In this document: piece by piece, positions 25,885 through 59,344 of the stretch
Layout: every line of letters starts with the position of its first letter
How positions within the stretch are numbered: the first letter of the stretch is position 1
Assembly: GCA_902552345.1 (NCBI GenBank)
Contig: CACDGO010000002.1
Location: 176,696 to 240,695 of the forward strand
Source of the DNA: an uncultured Pelagibacteraceae bacterium
Lineage (GTDB): Bacteria > Pseudomonadota > Alphaproteobacteria > Pelagibacterales > Pelagibacteraceae
Reading direction: 5' to 3'
DNA length: 64,000 bases
Notes under the pieces: generated by a model
What the model saw: the letters and a program-made list of their open reading frames with translations, nothing else
Database searches by the model: none
Told to the model about the DNA's origin: nothing
Translations under genes and position numbers: made by a program

Positions 25885-25999
25885 GTTGTATATAAAAAAC
25901 CCTTTATTTGCTTGTCTTATAGCATTTCAAATTGGTTTTGGGGTCCTTTTTTCTCTTTAAATTCAACTCATAATCAGTATGCTCCCCAGCAATAAGAGT

Positions 26000-26017
26000 A
26001 CTTTTTACGTAAAAAGT
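26000..26017. promoter_or_regulatory. Perfect 18-bp palindrome upstream of the symporter operon (putative operator)
   Basis: actttttacgtaaaaagt equals its own reverse complement; ends 22 bp before the ATG at 26040. Confidence 0.5.
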
Positions 26018-26039
26018 TAAAAAATAAATAGGGGGAAAT

Positions 26040-26297
26040 ATGTCAAATAAAGACGCATATTGGAACAAGACCAAAAACCATATGATCGTAACATTGGTTC
26101 TTTGGGCTTTCTTCTCATTAGTGATCTTCATGTTTGGTTCAGAGCTGAACACGATGTCTTTTCTTGGCTATCCACTAGCATATTACATGACTGCGCAAGG
26201 TTCACTTCTTGCCTTTGTGATAATTTTGTTTTGGACTGCAAATAAACAAGAAAAAATCGACGAAGAACATGGTTTCTCAGAAAGAGAGGATGACTAA
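26040..26297 (+). CDS. DUF4212 family small subunit of a sodium:solute symporter
   Basis: YWNKTKNHMIVTLVLWAFFSLVIF...; start overlap with the symporter gene; SD-like aggggg upstream. Confidence 0.88.
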   Translation: MSNKDAYWNKTKNHMIVTLVLWAFFSLVIFMFGSELNTMSFLGYPLAYYMTAQGSLLAFVIILFWTANKQEKIDEEHGFSEREDD

Positions 26298-36280: not shown

Positions 36281-37273
36281 CTATAAATATTTGCTTATTA
36301 ATTTTTCAAATAATTTAATATGATCTGAGCTATCGTTTAAACATGGAATAAAATCAAAATTTTTACCACCCTTCTCCATAAAGCTCTCTCTTCCCTGAAT
36401 ATTTATTTCTTCGAGAGTTTCTACACAATCAGAAGCAAAACCAGGACAGATTACTAATAAATTTTCAATTCCTTCTCCTGGCAACTTTTCTAAAGTTTTA
36501 TCCGTATAAGGTGTTAACCATTCTTGTGGTCCAAATCTTGACTGAAAGGTTGTCTGAATCTCAATTTTGCTGAATTTCTCTTTCATTAGCCTAGTTGTTT
36601 TGTGGCAGTAACAATGATACGGATCTCCTTTGTCGAAATAAGATTTAGGAATTCCATGATACGAGGAAATTATTAAATCCGGCTTCCAGCTAATCTCTTT
36701 GATTTTCTTCTCGATGCTTTTGATCAAAGCCTCGATATACAAAGGCTCACTTTCGTAATGCGGAATAATTTGTAAGCTTGGTTGCCACCTCATCCTCATT
36801 AATGACCTATAAACTTCATCACAAACTGTTGCGGTTGTTGCTGCTGCATATTGTGGGTAAAGAGGCAATACTATTATATTCTCACACCCTTTTTCTTTAA
36901 GATTTGTTAACTTGGACCTAATGCTTGGGTTTCCATATCTCATTGCAAAATCCACTATAATGTTTTCGTGTCCTATTATTTTATTTAGTTTAGAAGATTG
37001 TTCCTTTGTAAAGTATAATAGAGGGGACTCGTTGCTATCCTTTCTCCAAATTTGCTTATAAGCGTGAGCAGTTTTAGAGGGTCGAAAAGTTAAAATAAAC
37101 AGATTTAAAATAACTTGCCAAATTAATGGGTTAACTTCTATGACTCTTCTGTCTGATAAAAATTCCTTTAAGTATTTTCTTATATCCCACCAACTGGTCG
37201 AGTCGGGTGTTCCTAGGTTAATAATCAAAACACCGGTTTTACCAAATTTGACTTCTGGGTGTTTACTATCCAT
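36281..37273 (-). CDS. hemH: Ferrochelatase
   Basis: INLGTPDS, LPLYPQYAAATTA, SYHGIPKSYFDKGDPYHCYCHKT. Confidence 0.97.
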   Translation of the reverse strand: MDSKHPEVKFGKTGVLIINLGTPDSTSWWDIRKYLKEFLSDRRVIEVNPLIWQVILNLFILTFRPSKTAHAYKQIWRKDSNESPLLYFTKEQSSKLNKIIGHENIIVDFAMRYGNPSIRSKLTNLKEKGCENIIVLPLYPQYAAATTATVCDEVYRSLMRMRWQPSLQIIPHYESEPLYIEALIKSIEKKIKEISWKPDLIISSYHGIPKSYFDKGDPYHCYCHKTTRLMKEKFSKIEIQTTFQSRFGPQEWLTPYTDKTLEKLPGEGIENLLVICPGFASDCVETLEEINIQGRESFMEKGGKNFDFIPCLNDSSDHIKLFEKLISKYL

Positions 37274-38276
37274 ATGAGTTCCTATAAAAACTTATTAGTT
37301 TGCTTACTTTAACAGGATCTGTTTCGGGAAGTAACCCGTGACCTAGATTCAAAACGTAAGGTATTTCTTTAAAAGTTTGGATGTATTTCGTCGCTGTCTC
37401 GATAATATCTTCTTCGGACTTTAACAATATCTTTGGGTCGATGCCTCCTTGTATAACCACATTTTTCAATTTTTCCTTTGCCCACAAGGGATCGATCTCA
37501 GGGTCTATATTAATTCCATCTGGTTTGACTATCTTGTTAAAATCTTCATATTTTTCTTTTATGCCCTTGGGATAAGAAATGGCTGGTATTTCTCCTTTCT
37601 TACAAAAATCTATGATTTTTGCGTTAGGCTTAAAAATATAACTATTCAAATTCTCATTTGGTGCTAAACCTGCCCATGAGTCAAAGATTTGAACAACATC
37701 CGCTCCAGCTTTTATTTGATTATTAATGTGTACCATTATATATCTGTTCAGATCATTTAAAATTTTATTTATTGTTGAATGAGAATTATTAAGTTTATTA
37801 ATATCTATTTCTGTTTTACTCTTTTTTAGTTTAAGCATATAAATTAATAAAGTCCATGGAGCACCCACAAAAGATATTAATGACTTTTTTTTATCAAGTT
37901 CGTTCCTTGTAATTTCTATCGCTTTGTAAACTGGCTCAAGTTTTCTTGAAAATTTTTTTTCATCATTATTTATGAAGGTGTTTAGACTAAACTCACTAAG
38001 CTGTGGGCCATCATCTTTTAAAAATTCAATATTTTGACCTAAAGCATAAGGTACCATTAATATATCAGAAAAAATAATAGCTGAGTCTAAATCAAACCTT
38101 TTTATTGGTTGTAGAGTGATTTCTGAACTTAATTTACTATTTAGACAAATTTTTATAAAGTCTTTATTTTGAAGTCTTATCTTTCTAAATTCAGGAAGGT
38201 ATCGACCTGCTTGTCTCATAAACCACACTGATTTGCAAATTGTTTTGTTTATTAAGATATCTTTAAGATTACTCAT
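37266..38276 (-). CDS. hemE: Uroporphyrinogen decarboxylase
   Basis: VWFMRQAGRYLPEFR, IFDSWAG, LNLGHGLLPETDP. Confidence 0.97.
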   Translation of the reverse strand: MSNLKDILINKTICKSVWFMRQAGRYLPEFRKIRLQNKDFIKICLNSKLSSEITLQPIKRFDLDSAIIFSDILMVPYALGQNIEFLKDDGPQLSEFSLNTFINNDEKKFSRKLEPVYKAIEITRNELDKKKSLISFVGAPWTLLIYMLKLKKSKTEIDINKLNNSHSTINKILNDLNRYIMVHINNQIKAGADVVQIFDSWAGLAPNENLNSYIFKPNAKIIDFCKKGEIPAISYPKGIKEKYEDFNKIVKPDGINIDPEIDPLWAKEKLKNVVIQGGIDPKILLKSEEDIIETATKYIQTFKEIPYVLNLGHGLLPETDPVKVSKLISFYRNSYG

Positions 38277-38548
38277 TATAAATAAAAGTATTTTTAAAAT
38301 TTAGTATTAGTAGATGGACTTGTTAAATACACCTATAGTTTTTTATACATATTTTATACATATTTAAATTAATAAAAATTTGCTAAAACCCTTAATTTGA
38401 TGACTTTATTAACCCTATAAACATCAGTAAAACAAGTTTATTAACATGGAACAAAATGTTTAAATTTTGTTAATTAGTGTTAACTTTTTACTCGATAATT
38501 TAAAATAAGTGGAAAAGAATAGTTTATTATTTATTTATTAACAAACTT
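38277..38548. other. oriC: Candidate chromosomal replication origin (oriC)
   Basis: Longest spacer in the window; between divergent hemE and ppsR as at known alphaproteobacterial origins; 11-bp tandem repeat, three TTTATTAAC copies, phased TTAA motifs, extreme A+T. Confidence 0.6.
38341..38362. repeat. 11-bp perfect tandem repeat (TTTTATACATA x2)
   Basis: ttttatacata at 38341-38351 and 38352-38362. Confidence 0.9.
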
Positions 38549-39367
38549 ATGAACGAAAAATACAATGTATATCTAGTGTCTGACTCTACTGGTGAAACCT
38601 TAGATAGAATTTTTTTGTCCCTAAAATCTCAGTTTGCCAACTTTGAATATATCAAAAAAGAGTACGCATTTGTAAGAACAGAGCAACAGATTGATAAAAT
38701 TATTAAAGAATGCACTGGGTTTCCTAATTCACTTATCTTATATACTATAGTCGAAACAAAATTAGCAAAGTATATTTCAAATAAAAGTGAAAAAAACAAT
38801 GTCCCTTGTTTTGGGATCTTAGGAAATCTTATTTTAAGTTTTTCAAAACTTTTAAATCAAAAGGCAATACACAAACCTAGCGCTCAACATGTGCTGGATG
38901 ATGATTATTATAAAAGAATTGAGGCCATACAATATACAATGTCACATGATGATGGAAGAAATGTGAGTGATCTCGGTAAAGCTGATGTAATTTTACTTGG
39001 TATAAGTAGGACAAGCAAAACCCCAACATCAATATATTTAGCAAACAGAGGTTATAAAACTATAAACATTCCTTTAGTTCTCGATCAGAAACTCCCAATT
39101 GGTTTAGCAGCAAATAACAAAGCATGTGTCATAGGTTTAGTTGCAGACCCTGAAAGGCTAGCAGACATAAGGAGGAATAGAGTGGCTATTATGAAAGACA
39201 ATAATCTTAAAGATTATACTGATATCGATTATATAAAGAGGGAAATACAAGATTCTAAAAATCTTTTCAAAAAAAATAATTGGCCGATAATAGATGTCAC
39301 AAGAAGATCAGTAGAGGAAACAGCTGCATCTATTCTTAAGATAATTGAAATTAAAAAAAATAAATGA
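38549..39367 (+). CDS. ppsR: Pyruvate phosphate dikinase/PEP synthase regulatory protein (DUF299)
   Basis: VSDSTGETLDRI, LLGISRTSKTPTSIYLANRGYKTINIPLV. Confidence 0.95.
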   Translation: MNEKYNVYLVSDSTGETLDRIFLSLKSQFANFEYIKKEYAFVRTEQQIDKIIKECTGFPNSLILYTIVETKLAKYISNKSEKNNVPCFGILGNLILSFSKLLNQKAIHKPSAQHVLDDDYYKRIEAIQYTMSHDDGRNVSDLGKADVILLGISRTSKTPTSIYLANRGYKTINIPLVLDQKLPIGLAANNKACVIGLVADPERLADIRRNRVAIMKDNNLKDYTDIDYIKREIQDSKNLFKKNNWPIIDVTRRSVEETAASILKIIEIKKNK

Positions 39368-55216: not shown

Positions 55217-57085
55217 ATGACAAAACAATGCTTTGATGTAGTAGTTATAGGTGGAGGACATGCCGGATGTGAGGCTGCAGCTGCTTCCGCTAGAATGGGC
55301 GTAAATACTGCTCTTTTTACCCATAAAATCGAGACTATTGGGGAAATGTCGTGTAATCCCGCTATAGGAGGACTTGGAAAAGGGCATCTTGTTAGGGAAA
55401 TCGATGCTTTAGATGGTGTGATGGGTGTAGTAGCTGATAAATCAGGTATTCAATTTAGATTATTAAATAGAAGTCGTGGTCCAGCAGTACAAGGACCAAG
55501 GACTCAGTCAGATAGAGCCCTTTACAAAGAACACATGCAAAAAATCTTACTTAATTACAAAAATCTAGAGATAATAGCAGATCCTGTTGTTAAATTTTTA
55601 TTTGAGGGTGATAAAGTTATAGGTTTTGTATGTCAAAGTGGAAATGAAATCAGAACTAAAGAACTAATCCTAACTACCGGCACTTTTCTTAATGGATTAA
55701 TACACATTGGTGAGACTCAAATACCAGCAGGTAGGTATGATGAGAAACCATCTACAGGTTTGAGCGAACAATTATCAAAATTCAAAATGAAAATTGGAAG
55801 ATTAAAAACAGGAACACCCCCTAGGCTAGATGGGGACACAATAAATTATGATGATTTGGAAATGCAGCCTGCAGATGACAATCATTATTATTTTTCTTTC
55901 CTAACGAAAAAGATTGACAATAAACAGATTAAATGTGGGATGACTTACACAAATAATGATGTCCATAAAATTATAAGTGATAACATTTCCAGAAGTGCTA
56001 TGTATTCAGGTAACATTAAAGGAGTAGGTCCAAGATACTGTCCGTCAATAGAGGATAAGATCGTTAAATTTAAGGAAAAGGAAAAGCATCAGATTTTTTT
56101 AGAGCCTGAAGGATTAAAGGACAATACTATTTACCCAAATGGCATATCAACTTCTCTACCAGAGGAGATACAGCTCAAAATATTAGCTAAAATCAAGGGT
56201 TTAGAGCGTGTTAAAATGAGGAGAGCTGGATATGCTATAGAGTACGATTATGTTGACCCGAGGGAGTTAAAAGCAACCCTCGAGACTAAAAAAATTAATT
56301 CTCTATTCCTTGCTGGGCAAATTAATGGAACTACAGGATATGAAGAGGCTGCAGCGCAAGGCTTGATAGCTGGGATCAATGCGGCTTTAAAAGTTTTAAA
56401 TCAAGAGGAGTTTATTTTAGATAGATCAACTTCTTATATTGGTGTCATGATTGATGACCTAATCACTAAAGGTGTTACAGAACCTTATAGAATGTTTACA
56501 TCTAGAGCTGAATATAGATTAACTTTAAGAGCTGATAATGCCGATCAAAGGTTAACCGATTTTGGAATTAATTTAAATTTAGTGAAGTCTGAGAGAAAAA
56601 AAATGTTTAATGAAAAGAAAAGAAATATTTTAGCTCTTAATACAATTTTAAAAAATAATTATTTAACTCCTAATCAAGCTAAGAAATTTGAAATTAAAAT
56701 TGCTATGGACGGAGTCAAAAGAACTTGTTTAGAGATTATGGGTCAGCGAAAAGTAAATATGGCAAAAATAAGGCAAGCATTTCCAGACATTCCTAGTTTT
56801 CCAAGCTCCATAGAAAATCAAGTTGTAACAGATGCTCACTATATGGGTTATTTGGAAAGGCAAGACAGAGATATAGAGTCTTTTAAAAAAGATGAGTCTG
56901 TTATTATACCTGACGGTATAGATTATGAAAAGCTGAGTGGTCTATCTAATGAAATCAAGACCAAACTCCTAAAGGTTAAACCAAAAACTTTGGGTCAGGC
57001 TATTCGTATCGACGGAGTAACGCCTGCATCAATAATAATTCTACTTTCACACATTAAAAAACTTAGATATAAAGCTACTGCTTAA
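55217..57085 (+). CDS. mnmG: tRNA uridine-5-carboxymethylaminomethyl modification enzyme MnmG
   Basis: [43 protein letters not shown]. Confidence 0.98.
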
Positions 57086-57702
57086 TGCAGCAGTTGGAAG
57101 TTATTAATATTTTAAAAAAAGACCTTAATTTTGATGATATTTCTATTCAAAAGTTAAAAAAATTTGCTGAGTTAGTATTAAGCGAAAACAAAAATCATAA
57201 TTTGATAGCAAAAAGTACAGAGTCTTCAATCTGGCATAGGCATATTTTGGATTCGGCCCAGTTAGTAAAATTTATAGATTTTAAATCACTTTCTTTAGCG
57301 GATTTAGGATCAGGAGCAGGATTTCCGGGAATAGTTATAGAAATATTCAATAAAAACAAGGATTTTCACGTGAAATTGTATGAAAAATCATCGGTAAAAA
57401 GGCAATTCTTAATTAAAGTAATTAATGAATTAAATTTAAATGCAAAAGTTTGTGGTGATTATAGAGAACAAGTCCTAGATTCTGATATAATAGTTTGTAG
57501 AGCTTTTAAAAAATTGGAACAAGTAATACAAGTTTCACGTGAAATTGCTAAAAAGCCACATAAATTAATGATTTTAAAGGGCCAAAATGCACAGGAAGAG
57601 ATAAATAAAACTTTTAAAACACGAAAATATTCTTATAAATTAGTCAAGAGTATTACGAATGACAAATCGAAAATAATTTTGATGCAAATAGACTTTAAAT
57701 GA
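57085..57702 (+). CDS. rsmG: 16S rRNA (guanine527-N7)-methyltransferase
   Basis: NLIAKSTESSIWHRHILDSAQL, LADLGSGAGFPGIV. Confidence 0.95.
   Translation: MQQLEVINILKKDLNFDDISIQKLKKFAELVLSENKNHNLIAKSTESSIWHRHILDSAQLVKFIDFKSLSLADLGSGAGFPGIVIEIFNKNKDFHVKLYEKSSVKRQFLIKVINELNLNAKVCGDYREQVLDSDIIVCRAFKKLEQVIQVSREIAKKPHKLMILKGQNAQEEINKTFKTRKYSYKLVKSITNDKSKIILMQIDFK
57364..57375. promoter_or_regulatory. parS: parS-like site 1
   Basis: TTTCACGTGAAA core of consensus TGTTTCACGTGAAACA; in rsmG upstream of parAB. Confidence 0.75.
57531..57546. promoter_or_regulatory. parS: parS-like site 2
   Basis: AGTTTCACGTGAAATT, 13/16 match to TGTTTCACGTGAAACA. Confidence 0.82.
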
Positions 57703-58496
57703 CAACACCAACAATATTAGCGGTAATTAATCAAAAGGGCGGAGTAGGTAAAACAACTACGGTAATAAATTTAGCAGCATCACTGTCCATTTTGGGTCAA
57801 AATAATTTGGTTATAGATTTAGATCCACAAGGTAACGCAACAACGGGTCTTGGTAAGAACAACAGCGATGAGAGCAAAAATATTTATAATCTTTTAATAA
57901 AAAAAATTAATTTAAAAGAGACAGTTCAAAAAACCGAAATTAAAAATTTAGATTTAATCGGATCTCACGTAAATTTATCTGGCCTCGAAGTTGAAACAGC
58001 TAATGACTCTAATAGGGCTTTTGTATTGAAAGAAATTCTCTCAGCGGAGAAGAATGGTTTACTTAATAATTATGATAATATATTTATTGACTGCCCTCCA
58101 TCACTAAGTCTTTTGACTATAATGGCTTTAGTGGCATCAGATGAATTGTTGGTACCACTGCAAACAGAATTCTTTGCACTAGAAGGAATAACTCAACTTG
58201 TGAAAACAATAGATAGAATAAAAGAAAATCTAAATCCTTCATTAGAGATTAGAGGTATCTTATTAACAATGTTTGATAAAAGAAATAAACTATCTTCTCA
58301 GGTCGATGAAGAAGCAAGAAACTATTTCAAAGAAAAAGTTTACCAAACAGTCATACAAAGAAATGTACGTTTATCTGAGGCACCATCCCATGGTATGCCT
58401 TGTGTAGTCTATGATAAAAACTGCGTTGGAAGTAAATCATATTTTAAATTAGCTGAAGAGTTTATGAAAAGAAGCAATATTGAAAGTGCTGCATGA
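57699..58496 (+). CDS. parA: Chromosome partitioning ATPase ParA
   Basis: VINQKGGVGKTTTVINLAASL, DLDPQGNATTGLG. Confidence 0.97.
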   Translation: MTTPTILAVINQKGGVGKTTTVINLAASLSILGQNNLVIDLDPQGNATTGLGKNNSDESKNIYNLLIKKINLKETVQKTEIKNLDLIGSHVNLSGLEVETANDSNRAFVLKEILSAEKNGLLNNYDNIFIDCPPSLSLLTIMALVASDELLVPLQTEFFALEGITQLVKTIDRIKENLNPSLEIRGILLTMFDKRNKLSSQVDEEARNYFKEKVYQTVIQRNVRLSEAPSHGMPCVVYDKNCVGSKSYFKLAEEFMKRSNIESAA

Positions 58497-59344
58497 GCAA
58501 TAAAAAAAAAGGTTTAGGAAGAGGATTATCCGCGCTATTTGGTGATTCTAAGCCAGTGAGCGAAAATAAAGAAGTAAATTCTGTAACAAGAGTATCTATT
58601 GGTGATCTTAGTAGAAACCCTTACCAACCAAGAATGAACTTTAGGGAGGAAAAATTAGAGGAACTAGCAAACTCAATTAAAAAAAATGGAATTATTCAGC
58701 CAATAGCCGTAAGACCTAGTAAAAGTGAGAAAGGTAAGTTCGAGATTGTAGCAGGTGAGAGAAGATGGATAGCCGCGCAAAGAGCAGGTTTACATGAAAT
58801 CCCCGTTGTAATTCTTGAATTAAGCGATGTCGAGTCTTTGGAAGTAGCGATAGTTGAAAATATCCAGAGAGACGATTTGAATCCAATAGAGGAAGCAAGA
58901 GGGTATAAAAGATTGAATGAGGAATTTGAGTATGACCATGAGAGTATTTCTAAATTAATGTCAAAAAGTCGAAGCCATATCAGCAATACCTTAAGATTAC
59001 TTACATTGCCAAAAGATATTGTTGGAATGTTAGAGGAAGGTACTTTAACGTCAGGTCAAGCTCGCCCGTTAATAGGTTTATCTAATGCCTCCTCTATTGC
59101 TGAGGAAATTGTTTCAAAAAATTATAGCGCAAGAAAAGTAGAATATTTAATTAGAAATAAGAAAAGCAATTCTAATGAAAAAATCGTTGATGCTAATATT
59201 TTGAAAGCTCAAGAAAGAATAGAGAAAATTCTTGGTTTAAAAGTTAATATTTTAAATAAAAAAAACAATTCAGGCAAAATAACTATTGGTTATAAAGATT
59301 TAGACCAATTCCAATTTATTTCTAATTTGCTGACTAAGAATTAG
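58493..59344 (+). CDS. parB: Chromosome partitioning protein ParB
   Basis: KKGLGRGLSALFGD, NPYQPR, GERRWIAAQRAG, ENIQRDDLNPIEEA. Confidence 0.97.
   Translation: MSNKKKGLGRGLSALFGDSKPVSENKEVNSVTRVSIGDLSRNPYQPRMNFREEKLEELANSIKKNGIIQPIAVRPSKSEKGKFEIVAGERRWIAAQRAGLHEIPVVILELSDVESLEVAIVENIQRDDLNPIEEARGYKRLNEEFEYDHESISKLMSKSRSHISNTLRLLTLPKDIVGMLEEGTLTSGQARPLIGLSNASSIAEEIVSKNYSARKVEYLIRNKKSNSNEKIVDANILKAQERIEKILGLKVNILNKKNNSGKITIGYKDLDQFQFISNLLTKN

Follow-up and report, generated by a model that had tools for sequence, protein, structure and literature searches.

The spacer between the divergent genes hemE and ppsR in the window (the whole analysed stretch of 64 kb, which is the end of a 240,695-bp contig in an assembly of 997,704 bp, 20 contigs and 85.9% completeness) is very probably the chromosomal replication origin (oriC). 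This assignment, already proposed by the sequence-only reading, is supported by conserved synteny and spacer length, clustered DnaA-box-like sites, a skew basin with an opposite terminus, the proximity of parS, and the persistence of the spacer after the loss of hemE in one genus. The location is expected from the distant relatives Caulobacter and Rickettsia and is well supported; since the origin position of HTCC1062 has already been marked by hand in a figure (PMC4033161), the location itself is no discovery. A published description of the HTCC1062 origin sequence was not found in the literature searched, and the present analysis contributes the case built on sequence, a DnaA-trio-like element, the TTATNAACA form of the box, and the persistence of the spacer without hemE.

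The flanking genes were identified with curated models (Table 1) and are divergent as had been claimed, with hemE on the minus strand and ppsR on the plus strand, while the G+C content of the spacer compares with 23-41% across 2-kb windows, so that its A+T content is above the genome level. The pair hemE and COG1806 flanks the experimentally proven Caulobacter origin and the R. prowazekii origin (PMC1914354), which bears out the adjacency of hemE to known origins cited in the earlier reading, and the spacer lies between these same two genes, as in Cori-type origins. No gap in the window is longer when ORFs of at least 45 or at least 60 aa are counted as genes; this fails at a limit of 90 aa, where a 412-bp gap at 25885-26296 exceeds the 272-bp spacer.

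Table 1. Coordinates of the putative origin, its candidate elements and its neighbourhood in the window.
Feature	Position	Strand	Basis or remark
Probable oriC, divergent hemE/ppsR spacer	38277..38548	.	272 bp, 18% G+C
hemE, uroporphyrinogen decarboxylase, flank	37266..38276	-	TIGR01464, 302.9 bits, just under cut-off 302.95
ppsR / COG1806 / DUF299, flank	38549..39367	+	NF003742, 310 bits, cut-off 225
Probable DNA unwinding element	38277..38313	.	very AT-rich, abuts hemE start codon; inferred; E. coli DUE-R1 polarity
DnaA-trio-like repeats TAG TAT TAG TAG	38302..38313	+	composite element enriched in relatives
Linker ATGGACT, trios to box	38314..38320	+	7 bp here; 4 bp (e.g. GTCC) in most relatives
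Reverse DnaA-box-like site, plus strand TGTTAAATA	38321..38329	-	alignment
Tandem DnaA-box-like sites TTATACATA x2 (the TTTTATACATA repeat of the earlier reading)	38343..38362	+	shuffles; TTTATACAT enrichment
Degenerate DnaA-box-like sites TTATTAACC, CTATAAACA	38406..38423	+	alignment; TTATAAACA in most relatives
DnaA-box-like site TTATTAACA	38438..38446	+	9-mer enrichment, alignment
Conserved block, three TGTTNAA repeats	38457..38484	-	~10-11 bp apart; box-like, reverse orientation; role inferred
DnaA-box-like site TTATTAACA	38535..38543	+	14 bp upstream of ppsR ATG; position common to most relatives
gidA-gidB-parA-parB cluster	55217..59344	+	typical origin-proximal neighbourhood
parS core TTTCACGTGAAA within gidB	57364..57375	.	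perfect core
Second parS core TTTCACGTGAAA within gidB	57533..57544	.	perfect core

The relatives found via ppsR are Pelagibacteraceae, strain HIMB058 included, and viral contigs contained no ppsR relative. Of 50 relatives, 48 have divergent hemE and ppsR genes with 258-289 bp between them, and in a named set of 78 loci, whose genomes are partly shared with the set of 48, the spacer measures 263-285 bp. A few of these boundaries are accurate only to within some bases, due to hemE matches that fall short of the start codon. The order of the sites is also kept: in the alignment the fixed blocks begin near hemE with a stretch rich in TAG/TAA that includes GGTC and TGTTNATTA, continue with TTTATACAT repeats, TATAAACA, TTATTAACA and the TGTT block, and close with another TTATTAACA at 14 bp from ppsR. 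The motif TTATNNACA is present at 113 sites in the 48 spacers (96 forward and 17 reverse) versus 15.4 +/- 3.8 in shuffles, and the most enriched 9-mers, with no motif preset, are TTATTAACA (34 spacers versus 1.6 expected), TTTATACAT (30 of 48 versus 1.5), TTATAAACA and TTATCAACA, figures that overstate significance since the relatives are not independent and that reflect conservation as well as repetition because the spacers share ancestry. The consensus DnaA box TTATCCACA is nearly absent from these 48 spacers. A lack of conservation of the repeats in relatives had been named in advance as a ground for abandoning the oriC reading; the comparison across SAR11 relatives leaves this reading standing.

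The ranking of sites over a whole genome is a test of density that is unaffected by the shared ancestry of the spacers. In the complete relative G003 (1.2 Mb) the spacer is the sole 300-bp window holding four TTATNNACA sites and ranks first among 111 intergenic stretches, being the densest such cluster of the genome; on the contig of the window it is first among 24 stretches, with only two exact TTATNNACA sites. A DnaA-box cluster, as in Cori-type origins, is thus found for TTATNNACA in the relatives and in G003. G003 has another, small group of TTATNAACA-type sites at a distance of 15 kb from the origin, in front of a porin-like gene (C1:81989-82193, L069); DnaA binding, a regulatory role and chance are all possible explanations.

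All the features listed by the sequence-only reading are present in the spacer where it had placed them, and their weight was assessed against 5000 dinucleotide shuffles of it. The tandem TTTTATACATA at 38341-38351 and 38352-38362 is unusual as an 11-mer tandem (P=0.002), and the three copies of TTTATTAAC at 38405, 38437 and 38534 occur in 0 of 5000 shuffles, a result to be read with the 8% of shuffles in which any 9-mer is present three times. TTTATTAAC(A) is itself a DnaA-box-like site, a point that had not been stated, and TTATNAACA occurs twice, at the TTATTAACA sites (P=0.009), with no match to TTATNCACA in this spacer. The 22-bp inverted repeat at 38450-38471 is present at chance level (P=0.26) and unconserved in the alignment of relatives, and was dropped as an origin element; the minus-strand TTTTCCACT at 38508-38516 is likewise present, is kept in few relatives only, and was dropped as a supporting DnaA box. 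The TGTTNAA block is strongly conserved, with nearly helical spacing, and also yields a TTAA-N6/7-TTAA spacing; it could represent DnaA boxes of low strength or what is left of former CtrA sites.

Near hemE the spacer holds an element that is absent from the list of the earlier reading, in which TAG-type trinucleotides are separated by a short linker from a reverse DnaA box. The element was described by the pattern of TA[GAT] repeats, a 4-bp linker and TGTNNAT, and its stricter form is found in 27 of 50 spacers versus 1.7 expected in shuffles, an enrichment that is descriptive since the search pattern was shaped after viewing the alignment; about one third of the spacers are without the strict motif. 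Its distance to the hemE start is ~44 bp in nearly all cases, and the opposite strand carries it in none of the 50 spacers. It resembles the DnaA-trio unwinding system (BUS) and may have the same function; the definition of that system calls for a minimum of three NAN trios no farther than 16 bp from a DnaA box with at most two mismatches. In several relatives of the Pelagibacter genus the reverse box reads TGTGAATAA, the complement of the consensus-type TTATTCACA, which has one mismatch to TTATCCACA and is accompanied by three to four trios; in the window the four trios are separated by 7 bp from TGTTAAATA, and the complement of this site, TATTTAACA, differs from TTATCCACA at three or more positions.

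In two complete genomes of genus g7 (G007 and G015; L047 and L049) hemE is gone upstream of ppsR, where rho now flanks the spacer, and the best hemE match elsewhere is only 31-32% identical. The 353-bp spacer of this genus retains a trio-like element and TTATAAACA boxes and, since these motifs are kept without hemE, the signal is not that of a hemE promoter. An ordinary divergent hemE/ppsR promoter region, in which the repeats bind a transcription factor or DnaA acting as a regulator, is therefore a very unlikely explanation of the whole spacer: lying between two divergent start codons it must hold at least promoter parts, but its length and site order are kept while the flanking proteins diverge to ~50% identity, the density of its sites is the highest of the G003 genome, and skew and parS point to it. 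In a further complete relative (G028, C1:358212-359173) the origin-adjacent hemE is broken into pieces in two reading frames, one of them interrupted by stops, for which a frameshift, decay and a sequencing error are alternative explanations.

Because the assembly of the window is fragmented, the check by cumulative GC skew named in the earlier reading was run in four complete relatives (G003, G012, G028 and G015), and the position of the minimum does not refute the origin. At the spacer the curve is 1-7% of its amplitude higher than at the minimum, which lies at a distance of 26-34 kb (28-32 kb in the g7 genome G015), and the terminus is 527-631 kb from the spacer; in G003, where the spacer is at 67 kb, the curve has its minimum at 98 kb and its maximum at 674 kb, and the three further genomes, sampled over about one third of their length, agree with it. 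In all four the skew switches at the site, at a resolution of ~30 kb, and the terminus is opposite.

The raw minima are located ~30 kb to one side of the spacer, the hemE side in most cases, an offset that most likely reflects local gene orientation, and in many bacteria the origin is found at dnaA. Both facts would favour another origin site within the surrounding 100 kb, such as dnaA or the point ~30 kb toward hemE where the raw skew is lowest, yet such a placement is hardly credible in view of the strand-corrected data. In G003 the fourfold T/A skew, fitted with a simple two-switch model whose support interval is approximate, switches within 32-72 kb, which includes the spacer, while the fit is 11-14 units worse at dnaA (128-132 kb) and 100 kb is also disfavoured; the fourfold G/C skew alone is uninformative and the keto skew did not favour the spacer. 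Moreover, no box cluster of equal density is present at the alternative positions in G003, and dnaA switches sides of the spacer between genera: in g4 and g9 it lies 61-64 kb away toward hemE, in g5 and g7 70-73 kb away toward ppsR. Similar distances on opposite sides are the pattern of inversions about an origin, which is supportive and not proof. In the genome of the window (G000) dnaA is near the start of contig 1 (C1:17377-17850), ~43 kb plus a gap of unstated size from the spacer if the end of contig 2 joins at the ppsR side.

The hemE/ppsR origin is also favoured by its parS context. The parS-like sites placed ~19 kb away by the sequence-only reading are borne out as two perfect TTTCACGTGAAA cores inside gidB, detected by the core search, and the strict parS consensus with at most two mismatches gave no match. 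In G003 the sole perfect parS core is likewise in gidB, 8 kb from the spacer.

As regards regulation, CtrA was not found among the four OmpR-type matches of G003 (CtrA model 120.6 versus a cut-off of 350), whose best models are PhoB and others, and it is reported to be lacking in Pelagibacter (PMC2877005). The control by CtrA through TTAA-N7-TTAA that characterizes Cori-type origins is not recovered in G003; since CtrA is a variable trait of these origins, membership based on location stands. The TTAA-N7-TTAA motif is enriched in the spacers of the relatives (32 sites versus ~13), probably via the conserved TGTTNAA block, and TTAA-N6-7-TTAA forms are present in the window at 38460 and 38470. 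Genes of the HU/IHF family are present. Although G003 yielded no CtrA, a GcrA-family gene is retained in SAR11 genomes, which is an unusual remnant of the cell-cycle circuit of Alphaproteobacteria. In DnaA the box-reading domain IV has its RDHTT motif unchanged, so that no altered box specificity is evident, and the boxes may be low-affinity by design.

DnaA binding, unwinding and firing at the spacer can be predicted from this arrangement. DnaA-ATP would bind a series of boxes across the spacer, most of them weak and rich in A+T (TTATNAACA and TTATACAT forms), and also the reverse-oriented box near the hemE start codon, from which DnaA would load across the short linker onto the TAG-type DnaA-trios in the AT-rich stretch beside hemE; this stretch would melt and admit the helicase, and forks would leave both ways. 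The spacer can tentatively be described as a CtrA-free origin of the Cori type, which has shifted by drift to the AT-rich box TTATNAACA and has kept an ancestral DnaA-trio module despite the deletion of hemE in one lineage, this fuller account being possible rather than probable.

Few bacterial groups in the ocean are as abundant as SAR11. Estimates of its growth rates are often based on the read coverage from origin to terminus, for which a sequence-defined origin fixes the coverage peak. One published method sets the origin at dnaA (PMC7852909), which is 60-73 kb from the spacer in complete relatives. The spacer also offers a short, testable DNA for replication start in a minimal, CtrA-free cell cycle.

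Among known systems, the BUS of Bacillus subtilis and most bacteria shares with the candidate element beside hemE a box, a short linker and 3'-GAT-5' repeats with similar polarity (PMC8287927, PMC8235120); the published linker is ~4 bp (PMC8287927), GGCC in B. subtilis (PMC8235120), and the difference resides in the box, which in this genus has mostly the degenerate TGTTNATTA form. The E. coli unwinding element and box R1 have the same order and polarity. The Cori of Caulobacter crescentus is similarly AT-rich, located between hemE and COG1806 and provided with several weak DnaA sites, but it is controlled by CtrA sites, whereas the search in the SAR11 relative G003 gave no CtrA. The Rickettsia prowazekii origin has the same flanking pair (PMC1914354) and is described with CtrA and IHF sites, in contrast to the TTATNAACA-type boxes of SAR11. 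Finally, the origins of Wolbachia and the Anaplasmataceae also consist of an AT-rich spacer adjoining hemE, whose other flank is COG1253 and not COG1806 (PMC1914354).
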